This document shows positions 13,594 to 57,872 of a stretch of 64,000 bases of DNA, piece after piece (within the stretch, counting starts at the first letter, position 1; each line of letters starts with the position of its first letter). The stretch lies in NCBI GenBank assembly GCA_900321105.1, contig OOHL01000003.1, positions 81,516 through 145,515 on the forward strand. Direction: 5' to 3'. The notes beneath the pieces were generated by a model. It searched no databases. It was not told the origin of the DNA and saw only the letters and a list, made by a program, of their open reading frames with translations. The translations under genes and the position numbers were made by a program. Source of the DNA: an uncultured Pseudomonadota bacterium (GTDB taxonomy: Bacteria; Pseudomonadota; Alphaproteobacteria; Rs-D84).

Positions 13594-16500
13594 TTATTGT
13601 TTGTCGGCATCTGCCGCAACTTGTTCTTTACACAGTTTATCTTTTGTTTTATTCACTTTATTATTAAATTCTTGTGTTATTTTTTCAACTTCTGCCAAGA
13701 ATTTTTCATCTGCATCATTTTTTTCTTCACATATATCATCGGATTCGGATAAATTAATTTCTCTGTTGTTATCAGCAGGGCATACACATTTGTTGTTTGC
13801 CATTGTTCCTTTGTGTTTATCACATTCTTGTTTTATCTGGTTTTTATTTGTTTCTGGTTTTGTACATTTTAATACTATATCGGTTTTGTTATTCGCTCCT
13901 GTTTTGAATTCTATTTCAGATTTTGTTCCTGTTGGACATTTTTCAGAGACTGTGTCTTTAAGGTTAGAACAGTTTTCCATGCCATTATTGTATGTAACCT
14001 CTGTATGATATATAACTTCCGTTATTTCGTTTTCTGCATTTCTCACAACTTCTGTGGTGTCTTTTACATATACCTCTAAATCTTCACATGTGACTTCTGG
14101 TTCAGAAACAGGTGCAAAAACTGGTTCTTCTGGTTTTGGCAAAGGCAACGTTTCAGGTCTTGTCTTTACATCTTCTATATCTTGAACCTGCATAGGTATT
14201 TCCGTTTCTTCATCTTCAACAACGCATGTCAATTTTTCGCTGTCCCAGAATTCGCCGTTGGCTTGGTTTGGACATACACAAGTTGATACTTTACCATTAT
14301 TCGCCCACTTTCCGCCAAGTTTTTCACAAGCATTTTGTTTTTTAGCTTCAACAGATGTGTTTTCACGCAAAGTTTGTCCTATTTGTTGTTGTCTTTCTGG
14401 TTTTGGTTCTTCACTTGAACTTGGTTGTGCCATCCATGATCCTTCTGGTTGGGTGTTTTTTTCTGTTTCTAAAGTTTCGGTTTCTACAGAAATGTCAGGA
14501 TCATTTTGTTTTGCAATACAAATTTTGTTTACAGGATCCCATTCTTCTGTGGTTGGATCTTCACATTCACAAGTTGTTCCTGTCCAAGTGCCACCTTCAT
14601 AAGCACAAGCATCTGTATCAGATTTTTGTGCGTTTATAATTTCTGTTTCCACAGAAACTGTTGGTGTTTTTGATTCAGGCTGTGCGTCAGCAGCAGGGGC
14701 AGGTGATGCACTGCGTGATTGTTGTGATTTATCTTCATTTGATTTGTTTTCTTCTTGAACACAAGATTTGCCATCATTGGTTAAATGTGCGTTTTGATCG
14801 GCACATTTTTTAATACGACATTTCAGAGAATTTGTTGTCGAATCATAATCTGCTTCGATATAATCATCTTCAACAGATGTGCTGCCATGGGCAGTTTGAA
14901 CGGCTTTTTTACATTTGTCTTTCCAGTCTTTGATAGCGGTTTTAACAGCTCCATTATCCGCATGAGTCGCAGGATATTGTATAGTCTTTCCAAAACGCAC
15001 TTGTTCTTTGAATTTGTTGACAGTTTGGTTTATTTCTTTTTGACTTGGTTGTTTTGGAGTGATTTCATCATCAACAGGTGTATTTGTTTTTTGTTTTGGA
15101 ACACATTCTCCTTTAACAGGGTTGTCTTTGTGGGTATCTGCATTACAAGTATCGATATCACAGATACCTTTTGTTCCTTGTAATGAAAATCTCATTCCCG
15201 TGATACCATTTTCCGAAGGGTCATTTTTAATATGTTTGTTGCACAAATATGTGTAGTTGTCTCTTAACTTTTGGAAAACAGGGCTATTTTTAAAGTTCCT
15301 GGTAGTACCCTTGTCATTCCATTTAAAAACAGCTTTGTCAGTTCCAATAGGAAGACCAATTTGATAATAATTATAAACTATTTCGTTGTATGTGTTTGCA
15401 AGCGAATGTAATGTGTTTTTTTCTGTCTTGTTTTCAGAACCACTAAAAGCAACGTGAATAGGTTCTGCGTTTGGATTGTCAACCCTTTTTAATTCAACAC
15501 CATAATCAGAACCATCGGCGCCATTACCAGAACCCTTGCTGCCATTGTTCCCAGAATCTGCATTTCCAGAATCTTTATCGCATTTAGTTTTATCATGGGA
15601 TAAAACATAACCCTTGTCACAAGATTCTATCAAACATTTTCTTCCATAGATGCCTTGGTTTGCGCCTGATCCAATTTCTAATTTTTTTGCACCTTCTGGT
15701 TTAGCAGATTTTTTACATTCTTTTTCCCACTTTTCTATTAAAGGGTACACTTCAGGTTCTACAGTATATTTTCCGACATTAATTGTGCTACCTACGACAA
15801 CGCCTTTTGCGATTGCTTCATTTATTTTATCTTTAGCCTTTTGAATTTCTGCTGCTTTTTTATCTACAGCAGTTGTTTCTTCGGTCTTTGCAACGGATGT
15901 TTTACTTGTATCTGCGTTTGGATTGTCTGTTGTAATATCGCCAGTTTTTGTCTCTTTCTTTGAATTTTGTGCTTGTGCTGGTTTTGGATCTTCTGTATTT
16001 TTTGTTCCCTGACAAACATAATACACAGCGTTTGTTTCGTTTGCTCTTACCAATTCAAATCCATCACCGTTCTTTTTGCAAAGTTTGTTATATTCATAAA
16101 GAATACCTCTGACACTTGGTTGACCTTGTTTGCTTGTATATTTGCCTACCGACGTGAATTCATCCACGAGTTCCGTTGGATTGGTTATCTCTTTGGTTTT
16201 TTTTACAATAAGAATTTTTTCCCCAGCTTTGACGCTTCCGTTTCCTTTGTTATATTTTGCGTTGAATTCTGAAACAAGTTCTCTGACGCGTACTCTTTTA
16301 TATTCTTTCCCAATTACGATACAATAGCCTTTTTCAGGGGCGTTTTCTAACTGATAATCTTTTGGTTTGTCCGAATGTCCTTTGTGTATACAGGGTGCAT
16401 CCAAATAAATTCGTTCATCACATTGATCGTATTTATCATTATATTTTACATAATGTGTGGCACCCTTTGAATATAGTTCAAGTGTGGGATGTGATGTTGT

Positions 16501-16620
16501 GTGGTCGCACTTGCATTTTCCGTTTACAAGTTCGCCTTCATAACAAGGTTCTTGTGCCAACACTGGCATTGTGGTTAATGCTAAGAATAGGGCAGTAAAG
16601 ATTTTTATTTGTTGTTTCAT
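13594..16620 (-). CDS. Large exported Cys-rich repeat protein, 1008 aa
   Basis: Third gene of the operon. Signal peptide 1-22 (MPVLAQ). Very hydrophilic, rich in Lys, Glu, Thr, Asn and Cys, with long low-complexity linkers. Two repeat types are visible: EWEKxCKK...-like blocks with a conserved Cys-Lys pair (around 295-345, 465-510 and 560-615), and short modules with C-x2-GG-x-W, CxC and a later WDP/WDS...CV (around 670-700, 765-805, and a degenerate one near 955). These spaced cysteines suggest disulfide-linked surface or periplasmic repeats. No enzymatic motif seen. It starts 3 nt after the preceding stop. Confidence 0.75.
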   Translation of the reverse strand: MKQQIKIFTALFLALTTMPVLAQEPCYEGELVNGKCKCDHTTSHPTLELYSKGATHYVKYNDKYDQCDERIYLDAPCIHKGHSDKPKDYQLENAPEKGYCIVIGKEYKRVRVRELVSEFNAKYNKGNGSVKAGEKILIVKKTKEITNPTELVDEFTSVGKYTSKQGQPSVRGILYEYNKLCKKNGDGFELVRANETNAVYYVCQGTKNTEDPKPAQAQNSKKETKTGDITTDNPNADTSKTSVAKTEETTAVDKKAAEIQKAKDKINEAIAKGVVVGSTINVGKYTVEPEVYPLIEKWEKECKKSAKPEGAKKLEIGSGANQGIYGRKCLIESCDKGYVLSHDKTKCDKDSGNADSGNNGSKGSGNGADGSDYGVELKRVDNPNAEPIHVAFSGSENKTEKNTLHSLANTYNEIVYNYYQIGLPIGTDKAVFKWNDKGTTRNFKNSPVFQKLRDNYTYLCNKHIKNDPSENGITGMRFSLQGTKGICDIDTCNADTHKDNPVKGECVPKQKTNTPVDDEITPKQPSQKEINQTVNKFKEQVRFGKTIQYPATHADNGAVKTAIKDWKDKCKKAVQTAHGSTSVEDDYIEADYDSTTNSLKCRIKKCADQNAHLTNDGKSCVQEENKSNEDKSQQSRSASPAPAADAQPESKTPTVSVETEIINAQKSDTDACAYEGGTWTGTTCECEDPTTEEWDPVNKICIAKQNDPDISVETETLETEKNTQPEGSWMAQPSSSEEPKPERQQQIGQTLRENTSVEAKKQNACEKLGGKWANNGKVSTCVCPNQANGEFWDSEKLTCVVEDEETEIPMQVQDIEDVKTRPETLPLPKPEEPVFAPVSEPEVTCEDLEVYVKDTTEVVRNAENEITEVIYHTEVTYNNGMENCSNLKDTVSEKCPTGTKSEIEFKTGANNKTDIVLKCTKPETNKNQIKQECDKHKGTMANNKCVCPADNNREINLSESDDICEEKNDADEKFLAEVEKITQEFNNKVNKTKDKLCKEQVAADADKQ

Positions 16621-19118: not shown

Positions 19119-22100
19119 ATGAAATTTATTAGATTTTTCGGCGTTTTGGCGTTTTTGATACCATGCATGTCAATGGCGGCTGGCAATGGTGACTTTCAAA
19201 ATGCGTCACGTTTGTTGTCTGCGGCAAGACGTGGCGACACACAAACTGTCCAAATGTTAATCAATCGTGGCGCAGATATAAATTATACTGATTCAACTGG
19301 ATTGTCCTTGGTCTGCACGGCGATTATGAACAATGATACACGCGCAATTCAGGTATTGCAGATGTATGGCGCCGATGCCTCAAATTGTGAAAGACAAATC
19401 AAAAAATACAAACAAAAAACAAAAGTTGCCACGCGTGGTGAAGAATACGGATTTTTTAGTGGACTTTCTTCGTCGCATATAATTGCGCTTTCTGCGGTTG
19501 GTGTTGCGGCTGTGATTGGTGGTGTTGCACTTTTAACCGATGCATTTGATGCAAAGAATAATAATTCATCTTCGTCATCCAGTGGTTCTCATTCTGGCAG
19601 TGGCGGTGGCAGCAGCAGTGATACAACGTCTTATACAAAATTATTCTCGCAAAATCTGCCGTATGGGCCGGCATGTACAGGTTCTTCTTGCCCAACTGAT
19701 TTCACAACATGGGAAGAAATGCAGGATTTTGATTATATGTCCGATACATCAACCCAGAATACTTTCAATTATTTGATGGTGTCACACGCATATGATGCAT
19801 TTATCCGTGGATATTTGGGTATGGAAACGATAAGAATCAGCAGTGATTTATCCTCATTTGATTTATCGGACTTTGGTTATTATCCACAAGGTGATATACC
19901 TGGTGGTGGAAAACCTGTGAATGTTGCAATGATAACTGCATCTGGTGTTAATGCAACGGGCAGCGCAGTTGATGGTTTAATTCCATGGATTGATTCTTCG
20001 CAGATAACATCTGTTCAGACCGCATGTGCAAGTGATTCAACGTCCGAAGCATGTCGTAATGCAACGATAGCTGCAACAAATACAGCGCATAAATATTATA
20101 ATTTATCTGGCGCAACGGTTGCGGATGCGACCGAAAATGCCGCGTTTGATTTAACTGGTGCTGGAACAGTGTTTGGTTTCGCAACAGATGCAGATACCAA
20201 ATTGGCGAAAATAATTGCTGGTTGGGAATATGGTGGTCGTGCAACTGGTGATTTTTATGGGTTTATTCCTAACGGTCAATTAACCGTTTATAAAGCAGGT
20301 ACTGGGGCAGCTTGGACTGATACAACATCATCCAGTGTGACCGGTGCGTATAATATGGCTGGCGATGAATTGGCTGTTGATGATACATTTACTTTGGCAG
20401 ACGGGACAACCATCACAGTGACTTCTGTTTCTGGTGATTCTTTTGTTGCCACTGATTCTTCTGACAATGTTTATAATGGGTATTTGGTTGATGATAATTT
20501 ATATGTTGGTGTTGGTACGGATATAAATCAAAAATATTCTGTTGGTGATGAATCATCGCTGACTTTGGAACAAGAATTGACTGTTTCAGATTATAAAAAT
20601 TATTCTGCAATTTACAAAGCGTTAACTTTGAAGGATTCAGGTAATTATGTTGCAAATGTTATTGCGAATTTGTCTTTGCCATCTGCATCAACGGCTTTGG
20701 ATTACGCAATGATTAATGATGCAAAGGTCTTGTATGATAATGCATCAACAGACGCCCTGAAAGTGACTGTCTATAAGAATTTGATAAACAATTATTATAA
20801 CCTTGATACTTCTGATGATACAACGGTCAATACCCCAGGTGCGGATGCAGGGTTGGCTTTCACCGGTTTAGGCAATTATCAACAACAAATCTTGATAAAT
20901 CCTGCTGGGCGTACATTGTATGGTATTGGTGATGGAAAATCTTTAAGCCCACAGAATGCAACATTTGAAAACTTTGCACCTGTTGTATATCCGAATTTGG
21001 AAAACTTGTTTGCGACTGTTGTTGCAGTTAAACCAACGGATGGCACAACAGATACAACAATTGATGGGTATACTGCCGAGGGTGCTGGAAAATTACAATT
21101 GTCTGTGTGGACTGATGAAGATGATTCAAGTACAATTTATTCATCGCGTATGTGTGGTTTGACCGGAACAGGAAACGGTGGCGAAATGAATCCGTGGTGT
21201 TTTGCTGCGCCAGGAACAACAGATATGGACGCAACGGCGGCGATGGCTGGTTCGGTTGCTCTGGTTAAAAGTGCGTTCAATTATATGACACCAAAACAGA
21301 TATTCTTGCTTTTGGCTTTGACGGCGGACGGTCCATATCTTGGCGTGAATCCAAACAGTTCAACAGGTTATTCAAAATGGAGCAGTGATGCGGATTTAAT
21401 TGAATACTTGCAAGGTATGTACATTATGCCATCTAATCTTGATTCTTCGGATGATCAATATTTGCAAAGTTTCAAGACTGCATTTGGATATGGTATGATA
21501 AACCTTGAACGTGCAACGCGCCCAACTACAAATGTTTATTTTTATTCATCTGATACTGATTCAATTGTTTATTCTGGTAATAAAGCATTTTGGAGCAAGA
21601 TATCTACAACTTCTTCATCATCGTCTTCGTCGCGTGCATCAACTGTTTTGAACGGTCGCGGAACGGTAAAAACTTCTTTCTATGATATTTTGGAAAGCGC
21701 GGATAGTTCTATATCTTTGCCGCGTGTTTGGAATGCTGAATTTTCTTTGAACAGTGATTACAGACATGGGTTTTATATGGGCGATGTTTTGGGTGAATTT
21801 GCGGTTGATTCTACAAATAAACATTCCAAGACGGTTGGAAATATGTCTTTTGATATGGCAATGTCACCACGTGCATATAATGATAATTTTAATGGATTGG
21901 ATAATTTAAAAATATCCTTTAATAACGAACATTATGATTTAAACGCAGAATATCAACATCACTTAACAGACGGCGAATCCAGATTTGATGGTCGCGCAAA
22001 TGGTGTTTTATCGTTGGTTTCAAACGCCATCACCAGTGGCGCAAAATATAAATATGGCAAATTCGCATTTGGTGCACATGCGTTTTCTGGTCTTATGAAT

Positions 22101-22772
22101 GATGAAAATTTATTGGAAAACGATCCTGTGGTATCTTCACAATTTGAACCTGCACGCCTGGGACTTGCAACCGGTGGCGCAATGGATGCAGGTTATAATG
22201 GCGAAAAATTTAGTTTGAATATGTCAATTGGTAATATGCATGAAAATAATACTGTGCTGGGGTCAATCAGTGATGGTTTCTTGGCGCTTAATGGTGCAGA
22301 TACTCAATATGTCGATGTTGTCGCAAATTACAAGCCATTTGAAAAAATGAATTTGTTTGCACGTGCCACATATGCAAATACACAAGCAAATATTGGTGAT
22401 GGTATAATTTCTGCCTTGTCAGATATTAAATCAAATGCATTTGCGCTGGGAACAGATTTATACGGATTTAATTTTACGGCTGCAATGCCTTTGGCTGTTG
22501 TTGATGGAAAGATGGGATATGATTACGCAGATATGTCTGTTGTTGAAAACAATGGTGGATTTGATGTCGTTATTAACGATGCACATATTGAATACATTGA
22601 TTTGTCTGTTGAAAAACGCGAATTAAGATTTTCTGGTTCATATAAACAATCACTTGGCGAATTCACCGATGCCGGTGTTGGATTTATATATCGTGTAAAT
22701 CCAGGCAACACGAATGCGTTTGGTAATGAATCAATATTGATGTTCAAAGTCCATCATAGACTTGGTATATAA
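19119..22772 (+). CDS. Ankyrin autotransporter with degenerate subtilisin (S8) passenger
   Basis: 1217 aa. Signal peptide 1-20, ankyrin repeats about 30-88 (LLSAARRGDTQTVQMLINRGAD), hydrophobic helix 118-140, Ser/Gly linker 149-170. Residues about 260-740 follow the subtilase order: VNVAMITASGVN (267-278, Asp block), KLAKIIAG...FYGFIPNGQLTVYK (361-392, His block), ILINPAGR (591-598, oxyanion block), NPWCFAAPG and AAMAGSVALVKSA (691-719, Ser block). In each the expected catalytic residue is absent (Asp to Thr, His to non-His, Asn to Arg, no Ser), so it is probably a dead protease used as a binding passenger. Residues about 900-1217 form the outer-membrane barrel. Confidence 0.85.
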   Translation: MKFIRFFGVLAFLIPCMSMAAGNGDFQNASRLLSAARRGDTQTVQMLINRGADINYTDSTGLSLVCTAIMNNDTRAIQVLQMYGADASNCERQIKKYKQKTKVATRGEEYGFFSGLSSSHIIALSAVGVAAVIGGVALLTDAFDAKNNNSSSSSSGSHSGSGGGSSSDTTSYTKLFSQNLPYGPACTGSSCPTDFTTWEEMQDFDYMSDTSTQNTFNYLMVSHAYDAFIRGYLGMETIRISSDLSSFDLSDFGYYPQGDIPGGGKPVNVAMITASGVNATGSAVDGLIPWIDSSQITSVQTACASDSTSEACRNATIAATNTAHKYYNLSGATVADATENAAFDLTGAGTVFGFATDADTKLAKIIAGWEYGGRATGDFYGFIPNGQLTVYKAGTGAAWTDTTSSSVTGAYNMAGDELAVDDTFTLADGTTITVTSVSGDSFVATDSSDNVYNGYLVDDNLYVGVGTDINQKYSVGDESSLTLEQELTVSDYKNYSAIYKALTLKDSGNYVANVIANLSLPSASTALDYAMINDAKVLYDNASTDALKVTVYKNLINNYYNLDTSDDTTVNTPGADAGLAFTGLGNYQQQILINPAGRTLYGIGDGKSLSPQNATFENFAPVVYPNLENLFATVVAVKPTDGTTDTTIDGYTAEGAGKLQLSVWTDEDDSSTIYSSRMCGLTGTGNGGEMNPWCFAAPGTTDMDATAAMAGSVALVKSAFNYMTPKQIFLLLALTADGPYLGVNPNSSTGYSKWSSDADLIEYLQGMYIMPSNLDSSDDQYLQSFKTAFGYGMINLERATRPTTNVYFYSSDTDSIVYSGNKAFWSKISTTSSSSSSSRASTVLNGRGTVKTSFYDILESADSSISLPRVWNAEFSLNSDYRHGFYMGDVLGEFAVDSTNKHSKTVGNMSFDMAMSPRAYNDNFNGLDNLKISFNNEHYDLNAEYQHHLTDGESRFDGRANGVLSLVSNAITSGAKYKYGKFAFGAHAFSGLMNDENLLENDPVVSSQFEPARLGLATGGAMDAGYNGEKFSLNMSIGNMHENNTVLGSISDGFLALNGADTQYVDVVANYKPFEKMNLFARATYANTQANIGDGIISALSDIKSNAFALGTDLYGFNFTAAMPLAVVDGKMGYDYADMSVVENNGGFDVVINDAHIEYIDLSVEKRELRFSGSYKQSLGEFTDAGVGFIYRVNPGNTNAFGNESILMFKVHHRLGI

Positions 22773-23366: not shown

Positions 23367-24449
23367 ATGAAAACGAAAAAATTAAATTTTATTTTTGTGA
23401 TGATGTTGGCGATTGTTGGCATCCACACCCGTGCTGATTCCTGTACTGGAATTTCTTTGACATCCAAAGATGGATCAAACATTGTTGCGCGAACTGTTGA
23501 ATGGTCAAGTGGCGAAAGCCCAAGCGACTACTTAATTATCCCCGAAGGCTTTGAAAAACAATCCATGTTGCCAGATGGAACCAGAACCGGTATGAAATAT
23601 ACTGCATTTTATGGATATGTCGGTCTTGCATCCGAAGATTATGTTATCGAAGGCTTAAACGAAGCAGGGCTGTCTGCGGGGTTGTTTTATTTTCCAAAAT
23701 ATGGTTCATACCCAAAATATAACATAAAAGAAAAAGACCAAACAATTTCCGACACAGAATTTGTTGCATGGATATTGGGAAATTTTGAAACAGTTGATGA
23801 TGTTATTGGTGCATTAAGTGATATCAATGTTGTTGCCACAGATGCACGTGCCGAAAACCTGCATTGGCGTGTTGCGGATAAATACGGTCGTCAGATAGTT
23901 ATTGAATATGTTGACGGTATCCCAATGGTTTATGAAAACAGACTGGGTGTATTGACCAATTCGCCGGGCTTTCCATGGCATATAACAAATTTGAATGATT
24001 ATATAAATTTGCAACCTGGGACAATTGGTACGCGTGAATTCGGTAACATTTCTTTATCGTCAATTGGCAATGGCAGTGGGCTTTTGGGATTGCCAGGTGA
24101 TTTTACACCGCCATCGCGTTTTGTGCGTGCCGCATTTTTCCAAACCAGTGCGCCAATATTGGATACTGCGGAACAAACCGTGGCCCAGGCATTTACGATA
24201 TTGGAATCTATGACAATACCAATCGGTGTCCAGTTTAACGATAAAACCAAAATACCAAATATCCCAACGGCAACACAATGGACGTCTGTGACAGATATGA
24301 CTAATAACAAATTGTATTATACGACAATGTATAATCCGATTATTCGTAAATTCGATTTGAATAACATAGATTTTTCATCTGTTGAATATCAAAAACATCC
24401 GCTGGATACAATCAAGGTGCGTCCAATGACAGACGCAAGCATAGATTAA
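23367..24449 (+). CDS. Choloylglycine hydrolase family amidase (Ntn hydrolase, exported)
   Basis: 360 aa. A signal peptide (about 1-25) is followed directly by Cys26 in ADSCTGISL, the position of the N-terminal nucleophile of bile-salt hydrolases and penicillin V acylases. Other conserved elements: VARTVEW (Arg and Glu/Asp pair), GLNEAGLSAGLFYFP, VLTNSPGFPWHITNLN (Asn of the active site) and PSRFVRA (Arg). These fit a linear-amide C-N hydrolase of the Gram-negative, periplasmic cluster. Substrates may be bile salts, N-acyl homoserine lactones or related amides; they cannot be told apart from sequence. It shares a transcript with the following gene. Confidence 0.85.
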   Translation: MKTKKLNFIFVMMLAIVGIHTRADSCTGISLTSKDGSNIVARTVEWSSGESPSDYLIIPEGFEKQSMLPDGTRTGMKYTAFYGYVGLASEDYVIEGLNEAGLSAGLFYFPKYGSYPKYNIKEKDQTISDTEFVAWILGNFETVDDVIGALSDINVVATDARAENLHWRVADKYGRQIVIEYVDGIPMVYENRLGVLTNSPGFPWHITNLNDYINLQPGTIGTREFGNISLSSIGNGSGLLGLPGDFTPPSRFVRAAFFQTSAPILDTAEQTVAQAFTILESMTIPIGVQFNDKTKIPNIPTATQWTSVTDMTNNKLYYTTMYNPIIRKFDLNNIDFSSVEYQKHPLDTIKVRPMTDASID

Positions 24450-33668: not shown

Positions 33669-36653
33669 TTATTGTGAACATGTATCAGATATAGATGATA
33701 TATTTTCATAGGTAATAAACAGATTATTTTCTATTGTCGGTTGACCGATATTGCAAGATGTGCCATTGTTTTCGTCCCATTGAGATCCACTGTTATTATT
33801 ATATCCAACCCAACCCCATGATGATGTATATTGGTAAGCACATATTTCAGAACGACTGTCTTGATCTGAATAATAATACATAAAAGGTGTAAACGATTGA
33901 GTGTTATTTGGTGTCGCTGGTGTCGGTGGAAAATATTCGCCATTTACACTGACAAACACCCATGTTCCCGTGTTATCATTTGTTGCGCCTTCTGCACACG
34001 TATATATGTTGTTATCATATGAATATTTTATACCACCGTTCTGTTTAGATATACAATATAAATATAATTTGTCGCTGTCGACACCAGATGGACAAACATA
34101 GGCGGAATCTGCCTCGGTGTTGTCTGCAGAATTGTTTGTATTATTTGTAGAATCGCTTGTATCAGATGATGGTACCTCCTGGCATTCAAAAGTATTTAAT
34201 CTTGTGGCTTTGTAGTTTGTGTTTGGTACGCAAATACCATTGCTTTTTGCGCCTTCTGTGCAGCAATTACCAAATTGATCAGTGACTGCTGATGCACAAT
34301 AGTTGGTTAAATTACTTGTGACGTTGATGATTTGTCGTGTAATGCTTGGTAAACAGCCATCAGTTGTATTATTGCCATTATATATTTGAATACAAGTGTT
34401 TGTACTTTCGTCAAATTCGAAATCAATTGCACATCCATTTTTAGAATTGCAACTGTCGGCACGGTTGATAGTGCTGTTGTTTGTAGCAAACCAAGACAAT
34501 AATGAAGAACCTGTGTCAGGAATTTTTACCTTGTTTGATTTTTTGTATTTATCATCAATCAGATCAAGCGTGGTTATAACATATTTATCTGGCGAATATT
34601 CACAGTCACCCCAGATTTGTTTTGCGATATAACAAGCTGTTTTGTTGACACTGTCGGTTTCGTTGTTGCATATATCGTTTGATGATGTTCCAACTGACCA
34701 ATATCCATCAGAAGAAGTTGTTGGATACAAATCCGTGACAGTCATATTTTCCAAGTTGTCTGCGTTCTTGACGCATTCCAAAACCTTGTCCCAGCATGCT
34801 TCGCGGGTCAAGATTTTGTGGCGATTTGCATCTGATATCTGCTGACATAATGCAAAATTTCCAGATGAACCATTACATTGTTGAACAATACAGTCGCGCC
34901 CAACATTTGTACAAGTTTCAATCAAATTATTATAAGATTCTTCTGCCGCAATACCGGTAATACCTTCTTGCCAATCTGTAGAAATTCTGTCGGTGTTCAT
35001 TAAACTTACACAAGACGCTTGGATTTCTGCGCACATTGCATTTGCTGTTTTGTCAGCACTTACACTGAATGATGAAAGAGCACGTGCATCAAAATCAGCT
35101 AAACTTTGTAATGCATCTGTTTTGCATTCAGCAACCAATGTTGTACAGCTGCGTCTGATTTCTTCCAATTTATTATTTTGTGCTAATTTAATTTGTGCCA
35201 ATGCATCATTCAAGAATTCTTTCCATATCATATCAGACATATCTTGGCATTGTTCAATTGCTGGTTCCAAAAACTTTTTCTTTGAATTAAGGAAATTAAC
35301 AAATTTTTCATTAGCATCAATTTTTGACCATTGTTCGTCCACGGATGGTTCTTGCAATAAATTTGTTAAATTATATAAATCTGTTGATAAAAATGCTGCA
35401 CCGGTTGATGGATCAATATATTGACCGGTTGTATCTAAACATTTGTATAAATTTTCGCCGCACACAGTTGTGTCGGATAATTGTTCCAATATTTTCTTTT
35501 TACAGGTCAATGTATCATCGCTGTTGCGTTGTTGATAAATGTTCAATCTGGACATATCTAACAATGCGCCGCTTTCGTGAATTTTTTCCATCGCACTGTT
35601 GTATAATGTGTCGTATGATTTTGCGACCGTATTACAATCCTGTTGTATCGTTAATTTATAACCATCTTGTGCTATATCTAATTCATCATCATTGCATACT
35701 TCGCGTGCCATTTCGATACATATTGGGCGTGCAGCATTATATAAATCCAGACCGCTTTTAGCAGATGTTGCAATACCCCCCATTGAATCAATACTGTCCC
35801 ATGCGGTATCCATATCCAAAGACAAAGATATCGAAGACAAATCATTATTTATTTTTGAATCCCCAGAATTATTAAGAGTTTTGGTAATTTTTTGTAAAAG
35901 TTTTTCTGATTCTGTTGTATCTTTTTTTTCAAAAGCTAATTCGCCTTCGCTTGCAACATTTATTGCAGCGGCATCTTCTTTATCCAAGCTGACAGTCAAT
36001 AAACGTTGGTTAAAATCCAACATTTTATCTTCTGCGTCTGCCAACTGCTTTTTGATGTCATCAAATTCATGTATTCTTGATGAACAGGCACATCTGCGCA
36101 AATTAGTATCTTTGTTCGCACAGAATTCATCCATACATTCATAATATACGGTTTTGCATTTTGAATAATTCAAAGATTTTATATTAGTTATTTTTTCACT
36201 GTTCAATTCGGCAGCGCGTGCATTTCGCTTGGCGCTTTTTGCAGGGGCGGCAGAACGCGCGGATGCTGACATGCTTGATTCTGTTGAACGTGAATTTACC
36301 GTACGTGACGATGCTGTACGCGATGCAGTAGAAATGCGCTTTTGTTGTGCTATGGGCGCTGCCTTGTTGGTATTTGCTTCGCGTTGTTTAACGTTTTGTT
36401 GCGTTGTTGTGGATCTGGAAATAACACGTTGTTGTGGCTTTACAGCAGTTCTGGCGTTTTTGGATGTGTTTTGTGAATTGTCAGGTCTTTTTGTGCCAGA
36501 TGCAACAGAACGGCCAGCGGACATGGTTGAAGAAACAGCTGTTGTTGTGCCGCGTTTTGATGCAGCACGAACCGCATCAGCATCGTCAGCAAATGTCGTC
36601 TGGGACACAGACAAACCAAGGCATACGGCAAAAAACAGTATAATCCTTTTCAT
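33669..36653 (-). CDS. Large exported Cys-rich protein, 994 aa
   Basis: Signal peptide about 1-22 (TTFADD), then about 130 residues of basic Arg/Ser/Ala/Thr-rich sequence. A cysteine module follows (about 163-190: CKTVYYEC, CMDEFC, CACS; C-x6-C-x4-C). The middle is helical, with repeated C-x6-C pairs (CTTLVAEC, CAEIQASC, CTNVGRDC...CIVQQC, CWDKVLEC). The C-terminal 350 residues are Asn/Ser/Thr- and Cys-rich. Its N-terminal half parallels the truncated gene at 1-659 and shares cysteine spacing with 16624 and 18120. No glycine zipper is seen here. Function unknown; probably a disulfide-stabilised envelope protein. Confidence 0.78.
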   Translation of the reverse strand: MKRIILFFAVCLGLSVSQTTFADDADAVRAASKRGTTTAVSSTMSAGRSVASGTKRPDNSQNTSKNARTAVKPQQRVISRSTTTQQNVKQREANTNKAAPIAQQKRISTASRTASSRTVNSRSTESSMSASARSAAPAKSAKRNARAAELNSEKITNIKSLNYSKCKTVYYECMDEFCANKDTNLRRCACSSRIHEFDDIKKQLADAEDKMLDFNQRLLTVSLDKEDAAAINVASEGELAFEKKDTTESEKLLQKITKTLNNSGDSKINNDLSSISLSLDMDTAWDSIDSMGGIATSAKSGLDLYNAARPICIEMAREVCNDDELDIAQDGYKLTIQQDCNTVAKSYDTLYNSAMEKIHESGALLDMSRLNIYQQRNSDDTLTCKKKILEQLSDTTVCGENLYKCLDTTGQYIDPSTGAAFLSTDLYNLTNLLQEPSVDEQWSKIDANEKFVNFLNSKKKFLEPAIEQCQDMSDMIWKEFLNDALAQIKLAQNNKLEEIRRSCTTLVAECKTDALQSLADFDARALSSFSVSADKTANAMCAEIQASCVSLMNTDRISTDWQEGITGIAAEESYNNLIETCTNVGRDCIVQQCNGSSGNFALCQQISDANRHKILTREACWDKVLECVKNADNLENMTVTDLYPTTSSDGYWSVGTSSNDICNNETDSVNKTACYIAKQIWGDCEYSPDKYVITTLDLIDDKYKKSNKVKIPDTGSSLLSWFATNNSTINRADSCNSKNGCAIDFEFDESTNTCIQIYNGNNTTDGCLPSITRQIINVTSNLTNYCASAVTDQFGNCCTEGAKSNGICVPNTNYKATRLNTFECQEVPSSDTSDSTNNTNNSADNTEADSAYVCPSGVDSDKLYLYCISKQNGGIKYSYDNNIYTCAEGATNDNTGTWVFVSVNGEYFPPTPATPNNTQSFTPFMYYYSDQDSRSEICAYQYTSSWGWVGYNNNSGSQWDENNGTSCNIGQPTIENNLFITYENISSISDTCSQ

Positions 36654-54459: not shown

Positions 54460-57318
54460 ATGACCGGAACGATAAAAATTCGCGGCGCACGCGAAAATAA
54501 TCTTAAAAATATCGATTTAGACCTGCCAAAAAATAAATTGGTGGTGTTGACTGGCGTATCTGGGTCTGGTAAATCATCATTGGCTTTCAATACAATTTAT
54601 GCCGAAGGTCAAAGAAGATATGTTGAATCTTTGTCTTCGTATGCGCGTCAGTTTTTGGACATGCAGAAAAAACCAGATGTTGATTTAATAGAAGGATTAT
54701 CGCCTGCGATTTCCATAGAACAAAAAACAACATCGCGTAATCCGCGTTCTACCGTTGGAACGGTGACAGAAATTTATGATTATTTGCGTCTTCTTTGGGC
54801 GCGTATTGGTGTTCCATATTCGCCTGTGACCGGGCTGCCAATTAAATCACAAACTATTGCAGAAATGGTTGAATGGACACTTAAAATACCATACGGTGTT
54901 AAATTTTATATAATGGCACCAATGGTTCGTGATCGCAAAGGCGAATATAAAAAAGAAATCGCATTTTTGATAAAACAGGGCTATCAACGCGCAATTGTTG
55001 ATGGCACGCTTTATGATTTGTCATCTGTTCCACCATTGGATAAAAATAAAAAGCATAACATAATGGTTATAATTGACCGTGTTGCGATGCCAGATACAGA
55101 ATTGACAGGTGATGAACTGGATGAATTTAAATCGCGTCTTTATTCGTCTTTTGAAGCATCGCTTCGTTTGGTCCCAGGGGCTGTAATTGTTCACCGTTTG
55201 GATACAAATGAAGATTCTCTTTATTCACAAGAATATGCATGCCCGGTAAGTGGTTTTACTGTTCCTAAAATTGAACCAAGATTATTTTCGTTTAATGCGC
55301 CAATGGGTGCGTGCAGTGCGTGTGATGGTTTGGGTGTGCAATTAAATATATCACCAGATTTGGTGGTGCCAGATCCATCTAAATCTATATTGGGTGGTGC
55401 GATTGCGCCTTGGTCGCGTGGCGGCATGTTAAGCCAATATGAACATATCATGGATGCGTTGCACAAAAAATATAAAATACCATTATCAAAACCATGGCAT
55501 ACATTGTCTGACAAAGACAAAGAAATTATTTTATACGGTACCGGAGATGATGCGATAAAAATTAATTGGAATGGTTATATTTATGAAAAACCATACGAAG
55601 GCGTGATTCCAAATCTGGAACGTCGTTTGCGTGAATCAGACAGCGAAGCAGCCAGAACAGAATTATCAAAATATCAATCTGAAAAACCATGTCCTGTTTG
55701 TCATGGTAAACGCCTTAATATCCAGGCATTGTGTATAAAAATCAACGGATGCGACATTATGGATGTTTGTGAAATGGCGATTGATGATTCGTTGCGCTGG
55801 TTTACGGATTTACCAAATCATTTGACCAAGAAAGAAAATGAAATTGCATCAATGGTATTGCGTGAAATCACATCGCGTTTGTACTTCTTGCAAAATGTTG
55901 GTTTGGGGTATTTGACAATGTCACGTATGGCAGGAACTCTATCTGGTGGCGAAGCTCAACGTATAAGATTGGCATCCCAAATTGGCAGTGGTTTATCGGG
56001 TGTTTTATATGTGTTGGATGAACCATCAATTGGTTTGCATCAAAGCGATAACGATAAATTGATAGATACACTGAAAATGTTGCGCGACAAAGATAATACG
56101 GTTATCGTTGTTGAACATGACGAAGATATGATGCGGGCGGCTGATTATTTGGTTGATATTGGTCGTGGTGCGGGTATAAATGGTGGAAACGTAATTGCCC
56201 AAGGAACCCCAGCCCAGGTTATTAAAAACCCAGATTCTTTGACAGGACAATATTTGTCTGGCAAACGCAAAATCGAAGTCCCAAAGAAACGCCGTGCCGG
56301 CAATGGCAAGGTTATCAGAATCGAAGGTGCGTGTGAAAACAATCTGAAAAATATAACGGTTGATTTTCCTCTTGGTAAATTTATTGCGTTAACTGGGGTT
56401 TCTGGTTCTGGTAAATCTACATTATTGTTGAATACACTTTATCCAGCGATTATGCGTGCGCTTTATAATTCCAAAATGGAAACAGGTAAACACGATATAA
56501 TTCGCGGTATGGAAAATATAGACAAAGTTGTTGATATTGACCAATCACCAATTGGACGCAGCCCGCGCAGTAATCCGGCAACCTATGTTGGTGTGTTCAA
56601 TAATATTCGTGATTTCTTTGCGAATTTACCAGAAGCCAAAACACGTGGTTATGACGCCGGCAGATTCTCTTTTAATGTCAAGGGTGGCCGATGCGAAGCA
56701 TGTCAGGGTGACGGTCAAATCAAAATAGAAATGAATTTCCTGGCTGATATTTATGTAGAATGTGATAAATGCCACGGTCAACGGTATAACGATGAAACTT
56801 TGGCTGTTAAATACAAGGGTAAATCGATTGCCGATGTATTGAATATGACGGTCGAAGAAGCATACAGATTCTTTATAAATGTCCCACAAATTGCACGAAA
56901 ATTGGAATTGTTAAAACGTGTTGGACTTGATTATATTAAGTTGGGACAAAGTTCACTGGATTTATCCGGGGGTGAAGCCCAACGTATAAAATTATCAAAA
57001 GAATTGGCGGCGCGCAGTACCGGTCAAACAATATACATTTTGGACGAGCCTACAACGGGGCTTCATTTCGAAGATATTAAATCTTTGCTTTCTGTTCTTC
57101 ATGAATTGGTAGACCAGGGCAATACAGTTATCGTTATTGAACACAATTTGGAAGTTATAAAAACAGCAGATTGGGTTATTGATTTGGGACCAAATGGTGG
57201 TAATGGTGGTGGTCGCGTTGTTGCAACTGGAACCCCAGAAGATATTGTAAAAGTTCCTGAATCTTTGACGGGGAAATATCTTAAAAAGTACCTGGACAAA
57301 CCTAAAAAAAGCAAATAA
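54460..57318 (+). CDS. uvrA: Excinuclease ABC subunit A
   Basis: 952 aa, full length. Two ABC ATPase modules with Walker [10 protein letters not shown] (about 32-40) and GVSGSGKST, two [12 protein letters not shown] signatures, and both Walker B segments ([22 protein letters not shown]). The first zinc module reads CPVSGF...[10 protein letters not shown], with Ser where E. coli has the second Cys; I recall this variant from alphaproteobacteria. The second zinc module (CEACQGDG...CDKCHG) is intact. Recognises DNA lesions with UvrB. Confidence 0.98.
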
Positions 57319-57356
57319 GATAAAATAAACTAACAAACAAAAACAGGAGAAGACAA

Positions 57357-57872
57357 ATGTTCGGATTTGGAAAAAAGAAAAAAGTAGAAGAAGCCAAAGA
57401 AAATATCGATTTGGAAAAAGAAGCCGCAAAAATGCCTTCTGGGATGAAAGAAACCGCAGAACGTATGATGTCTGGTCAATTTGATATGAACGATATGTTG
57501 GCACAATTAAAACAAATCAAAAAGATGAGCAATTTCAGCGGTCTGCTTAAAATGGTTCCGGGTATGTCAGGCGCAGTTGCCGCAATGAAAGAAAAAATCA
57601 AAGACGGCAGTGTCGATGCGCAAATTAAAATATTGGAAGCCATGACAGATGCAGAACGCGCAGACCCAGAAAAAGTTTTTGCTAATGCCAAGGCACGTAT
57701 TGCGGAAACAGCGGGATGCACAGTTCGCGAAGTTGAACACATTATCAAACAATATTTGAATATGAAACGTCAAATGGCAATGATTCAACGTATGGGCGGA
57801 ATGGAAGCGGTTATGCAACGTATGCAACAACAACCAGGCGGATTCCCAGGAACAAAACCAGGTGCAAAATAA
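57357..57872 (+). CDS. Stand-alone SRP54 (Ffh) M-domain-like protein
   Basis: 171 aa with its own AGGAGA Shine-Dalgarno. After a basic MFGFGKKKKVEEAK start, the protein follows the Ffh M domain: AERMMSGQFDMNDMLAQLKQ, IKKMSNFSGLLKMVPGM, MTDAERADPEKVF, ARIAETAGCTVREVEHIIKQY, then Met-rich MKRQMAMIQRMGGMEAVMQRM and a GGFPG end. There is no GTPase (NG) domain here or upstream (uvrA ends 38 nt before). The 4.5S-RNA-binding stretch, normally SRKRRIAAGSG, reads NAKARIAETAG, so key Arg/Ser/Gly residues are lost. It may be an Ffh-derived paralogue or half of a split SRP. Confidence 0.85.
   Translation: MFGFGKKKKVEEAKENIDLEKEAAKMPSGMKETAERMMSGQFDMNDMLAQLKQIKKMSNFSGLLKMVPGMSGAVAAMKEKIKDGSVDAQIKILEAMTDAERADPEKVFANAKARIAETAGCTVREVEHIIKQYLNMKRQMAMIQRMGGMEAVMQRMQQQPGGFPGTKPGAK

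Follow-up and report, generated by a model that had tools for sequence, protein, structure and literature searches.

To our knowledge the SRP is a protein-targeting machine of nearly all cells; it is commonly regarded as universal, with the GTPase cycle taken as the heart of co-translational targeting. A gene for the M domain of Ffh, standing free between uvrA and rlmE, was found in a stretch of DNA of 64,000 nucleotides (here called the window), which raises the question of whether it is a remnant of ffh, a piece of a divided SRP or a protein with a role of its own. The source genome is strongly reduced (874 kb) and, among named records, lies closest to Candidatus Enterousia and other gut Alphaproteobacteria; reduced genomes are a feature of the order Rs-D84 (PMC12306168). 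The features of the locus are as follows.

54460 to 57318, plus strand: uvrA, the conserved upstream neighbour
57345 to 57349, plus strand: Shine-Dalgarno-like AGGAG
57357 to 57872, plus strand: free-standing Ffh M-domain gene of 171 aa, an ffh orthologue without the NG domain
57357 to 57380, plus strand: N-terminal tag MFGFGKKK, conserved, absent from Ffh and followed by a variable linker
57477 to 57776, plus strand: SRP_SPB signal-binding domain, from a profile match and a fold match to Ffh/SRP54 M domains
57684 to 57716, plus strand: replaced 4.5S-RNA-binding motif, with NAKARIAETAG in place of SRKxRIAxG[SA]G
57723 to 57830, plus strand: long helix and Met-rich C-terminal helix (residues 123-158), the helices taken from the predicted structure and a nascent-chain or tunnel contact inferred from mL105 (PMC7326499)
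57879 to 58538, plus strand: rlmE (FtsJ methyltransferase), the conserved downstream neighbour

The initial annotation had described a complete gene with its own Shine-Dalgarno sequence that encodes the M domain of Ffh and no NG GTPase domain, and both points were borne out. Pfam SRP_SPB matched the 171-aa protein with 79 bits over the whole domain, and the NCBIfam ffh model matched it at positions 314-427 of 428 and at no others. The end of uvrA lies 38 nt upstream and leaves no space in which an NG domain could be hidden, and none is encoded in frame. Elsewhere in the window there are four very large proteins at 3606-6791 (1061 aa), 13594-16620 (1008 aa), 33669-36653 (994 aa) and 19119-22772 (1217 aa), three of them with no Pfam match at 1e-5 and the remaining one with just a weak ankyrin match. 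A choloylglycine/bile-salt hydrolase family protein is found at 23367-24449, consistent with a gut lifestyle.

Genome-wide profile searches of the source genome, which covered the check proposed with the initial annotation for a full-length ffh, ftsY and a 4.5S RNA gene, found none of these; nor did they return another SRP_SPB domain or any SRP54-type GTPase above the cut-off, and no 4.5S RNA was detectable. A single weak match to the SRP54 GTPase (19.5 bits) was rejected, as it lies in a Der-like protein that carries two GTPase domains. Of the parts that make up a bacterial SRP, the source gene and genome hold the M domain, and the N and G GTPase domains, FtsY, 4.5S RNA and the SRxxRIAxGSG motif were not found. 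The suggestion that the protein might belong to a split SRP whose NG part is encoded at another locus is contradicted by these searches, as the NG domain, FtsY and 4.5S RNA were found neither in the source genome nor in the relatives described below that share its M-only state.

The full Ffh model was searched against 183 genomes of the family, of which 163 make up the M-only set, namely the source genus and five sister genera (g18, g19, g20, g23 and g24). In about 154 of the 163, among the matches listed and in the per-genome rows, the M domain was found and the Ffh NG domain and FtsY were not; for the weakest M matches, those of g23 included, the absence of NG and FtsY was judged from the per-genome rows. 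The other nine had no clear M match, and eight of these are less than 90% complete. One genome rated 100% complete (G142) has neither the M gene nor rlmE, which makes a missing segment likelier than a specific loss of the M gene. With the GTPase model, all 35 genomes of the same genus were without an SRP54 GTPase above the cut-off. In the same family, the SRP-bearing genera g22 and g25-g29 (19 genomes) have full-length Ffh, nearly all together with FtsY, and the order's remaining families carry both full-length Ffh and FtsY. Genus g21, known from one incomplete genome, gave zero matches to the Ffh model.

The Rfam model RF00169 gave no match for 4.5S RNA in any genome of the same genus and matched most outgroups. 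This model alone is too insensitive here, since it fails to detect the RNA in several relatives that bear SRP, and a 21-base core pattern of the family's own (GTCAGGGGGAAACCAGCAGCC, up to three mismatches) was added. The core was present in 17 of the 19 SRP-bearing genomes of the family, the misses being G195 and the 54% complete G206, and in one of the 163 genomes of the M-only set (G117); a reversed control of the pattern gave zero matches. The core in G117 falls within a porin-like ORF and was taken as a chance match. The g26 genome G195 (92% complete, ffh locus L092) has a full-length Ffh with neither an FtsY match nor a 4.5S core match, a pattern that could be due to gaps in the assembly or mark a genome partway through losing SRP.

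Gaps in assembly or binning might be thought to hide the NG domain, FtsY and 4.5S RNA, as the named relatives are metagenome assemblies and the source genome itself lacks the L2 gene, which means that gaps do exist in it. The three absences, however, recur in about 160 species-level genomes, including a one-contig genome of 99% and a two-contig genome of 95% completeness, and identical searches recover the parts from most of the family's SRP-bearing genera. An artefact of this kind is thus exceedingly improbable.

The gene order points to where the M gene came from. SRP-bearing genera carry uvrA, ffh and rlmE in this order, sometimes with one gene between the last two (e.g., L082, L087, L088 and L090), and in the 80 M-gene loci, which bear on the proposal that the order be followed by profile search in related genomes, uvrA lies upstream and rlmE downstream wherever flanking sequence is present, again sometimes with one gene between M and rlmE. 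Because full-length ffh occupies the same place in SRP-bearing relatives, the simplest reading of the M gene is as the ffh orthologue, truncated in situ, and not as a stray paralogue. In Enterousia and its sister genera, all that is left of ffh, at its original site, is the M domain, and the GTPase, FtsY and 4.5S RNA were not found. A role as a regulator of RlmE, also put forward in the initial annotation, is unsupported, since the ancestral full-length ffh already lay in the same neighbourhood. The coupling to rlmE noted there stands for the source genome, where the gap is 6 nt, but is not general, as many relatives have another gene in between. The stretch from the M gene to rlmE is variable in many relatives (e.g., L112, L121 and L137), reaching about 1.7 kb with room for an extra gene, and is absent in the window.

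In a tree of 22 ribosomal and SecY proteins, the M-only genus g23 fell outside the branch joining the SRP-bearing genus g27 and the main M-only clade (support 100/99). A constraint holding the M-only genera together was rejected (AU p 0.029), where g23 is represented by one genome (G191) whose M gene was not read directly and the tested grouping was chosen after the tree had been seen. The position of g23 is suggestive of two changes between the SRP-bearing and the M-only state.

The pattern of substitution indicates that the M gene is under strong purifying selection. Across relatives the median pS is 0.66, near saturation, with a pN of 0.12 and an amino-acid identity of 0.82, a constraint comparable to that of UvrA and RlmE and unlike that of RodZ (0.49). 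Shine-Dalgarno-like sites were found upstream of the gene in 66 of the 70 relatives checked. A decaying relic, or functionless truncated copy of ffh, would fit the strong reduction of these genomes (874 kb in the source), but it is contradicted by the selection pattern: the gene is kept in about 154 genomes with its own Shine-Dalgarno site and a fixed tag, and synonymous sites are near-saturated with few amino-acid changes. Such decay is very hard to credit, and the same clade-wide conservation speaks against a local truncated copy of Ffh that all relatives lack.

The new basic N-terminus claimed for the protein was confirmed as the tag MFGFGKKK, which is nearly fixed as MFGFG[KR]K among the relatives read and is followed by a linker of variable sequence. 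Full-length Ffh of SRP-bearing relatives begins with MFDxLTRR or similar and has no MFGFGKKK. The tag is disordered in AlphaFold2 models and may be a membrane or ribosome anchor. High conservation of the protein extends up to about residue 153, and the M domain and its Met-rich signal-binding helices are retained, as had been proposed.

The residues on the former 4.5S RNA face were compared with numbers following E. coli Ffh, for which we used what we take to be the reference sequence; PDB 1dul covers this region as well. In the E. coli structure they are contacts of the 4.5S RNA. R398, found in every one of the 16 SRP-bearing relatives, is alanine in 76 of 76 M-only rows, and S397 is asparagine in all 76. 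S382 is replaced by alanine and G405 by threonine or serine in the M-only rows, whereas R401 and G407 are retained, so that the reported loss of the Arg, Ser and Gly residues that bind 4.5S RNA holds for R398, S397, S382 and G405 and does not extend to R401 and G407. N397, A398, E404, T405 and A406 are new residues on the old face, fixed or nearly so. As the face has been fixed anew with no drift, the sequences suggest a new contact or an internal stabilisation. It could be that the face was rebuilt for a new partner, such as another RNA, SecA or a ribosomal protein, and that targeting is not the main role of the protein; the clade-wide fixation of the five residues in the RNA-binding helices favours such a binding factor. 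The signal-binding region, however, is as constrained as the rebuilt face, no new domain has been fused and the residues now present are less basic than those they replaced, and we regard this explanation as unlikely.

The AlphaFold2 models have middling mean pLDDT values of 67.5 and 69.2, with the best core helices above 80 and the tag and tail disordered. Comparison of the model with Ffh/SRP54 M domains gave a best Z of 13.5, and mL105-type mitoribosomal proteins gave 9.6 (Tetrahymena), 9.9 (Polytomella) and 10.4 (Toxoplasma); Z values of this size in helical proteins are no proof alone, but they exceed those of unrelated rows and are in line with what the sequence profile finds. The profile of the M protein reaches Tetrahymena mL105 with an E of 9e-6. 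Ffh M domains match the M protein better than mL105 does, and therefore the likeness to mL105 runs via Ffh and does not define a shared subfamily.

MAP67/mL105 is an M-domain-only protein at the tunnel exit of the mitoribosome, where the C-terminal helix of the Tetrahymena protein enters the tunnel and the Polytomella protein contacts density taken as the OXA1L insertase (PMC7326499, PMC9576764). It shares with the M protein an Ffh M domain without NG and no known SRP RNA partner (PMC8321541, PMC7326499, PMC9576764), and its holders mostly lack SRP GTPases in the mitochondrial compartment, just as no SRP GTPases were found in the M-only bacteria. It differs in being eukaryotic, organellar and mitochondrially targeted, whereas the M gene lies on a bacterial chromosome. 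MAP67 is thought to derive from a duplication of mtFfh, together with which it can occur (Goniomonas), whereas here there is a single in-situ ffh orthologue, and the M-only bacteria are further set apart by keeping SecY and YidC. The M domain of bacterial Ffh (SRP54) is homologous to the M protein, which shares its locus with the full-length ffh of relatives, but the M protein lacks the N and G domains, has a replaced RNA motif and a new N-terminal tag, and comes from genomes in which FtsY and 4.5S RNA were not found. In chloroplast cpSRP54 and mitochondrial mtFfh the RNA-binding motif is mutated alongside loss of the SRP RNA, as here, although both the NG GTPase and the FtsY partner are kept (PMC8321541). 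In yeast with an mba1 deletion and oxa1-deltaC, bacterial Ffh is reported to help (cited in PMC8321541). Laboratory SRP deletions and suppressed strains indicate that bacterial life without SRP is possible, but a retained M-domain protein is not described there. The M protein is a member neither of the bacterial SRP nor of MAP67, and mitochondrial MAP67/mL105 is its closest precedent.

Given the analogy to mL105/MAP67 at the tunnel exit and the retention of YidC and SecY in Enterousia and its relatives, we propose, at roughly even chances, that the M protein is a GTPase- and RNA-independent nascent-chain adaptor for handover from the ribosome to SecYEG/YidC. The protein would probably dock at the ribosome tunnel exit via its Met-rich C-terminal helices, and signal-anchor or transmembrane segments would be captured in the M-domain groove. 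Once captured, segments would reach SecYEG and/or YidC through proximity at the membrane, with no GTP-driven cycle, and the basic-aromatic tag on its flexible linker may touch the membrane or the ribosome. The mode of action would be like that of mitochondrial mL105/MAP67, a parallel that rests on the shared domain. The SRP-derived signal-sequence-binding factor envisaged in the initial annotation fits the evidence and is strengthened as a predicted function.

YidC, uL22, uL23, uL24 and uL29 were compared with what were presumably the E. coli sequences as queries, and no extension specific to the M-only genomes was seen in any of them; no compensating change in the ribosome or the insertase was thus found. 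In the YidC loci L214-L232, a segment around NLFGLLPF in the C-terminal half is present in the outgroups and g26 and absent in all other family genera tested. That no ribosomal-protein change was seen would also fit a soluble, SecB-like holdase with no site on the ribosome, in which a free M domain takes up signal peptides or transmembrane segments once the ribosome has released them and maintains their competence for insertion by SecA/SecYEG or YidC; the retained M domain and Met-rich helices and the lack of a remaining docking GTPase agree with it as well. The part equivalent to the tunnel-entering part of mL105 is nevertheless kept and conserved to about residue 153, and the fixed tag suggests a fixed docking site, so that a holdase appears possible but rather doubtful.

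The initial annotation knew of no described bacterial protein of this form, and our search of open papers, with subscription papers outside its range, likewise found no description of a bacterial free-standing M domain, the known precedent being mitochondrial MAP67/mL105. The same search found no mention of SRP loss in Enterousia, whose genome reduction has been described with SRP not mentioned (PMC12306168). An arrangement with the M domain only appears to be otherwise described only at mitochondrial ribosomes.

In about 160 species-level genomes the GTPase cycle, the receptor and the RNA were not found and the signal-binding module is conserved. Tentatively, and with the balance somewhat against it, the whole clade may insert its membrane proteins without SRP GTPase, receptor and RNA via a ribosome-associated M adaptor, an arrangement that would have arisen at least twice and would be a living bacterial counterpart of the step to mL105/MAP67. 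The finding opens the testable question of the minimum SRP function, that is, whether signal capture at the ribosome is enough alone or GTP-driven delivery is needed, and it offers, within the Alphaproteobacteria, a parallel to the path that led in mitochondria from SRP to a ribosomal protein with an M domain only.
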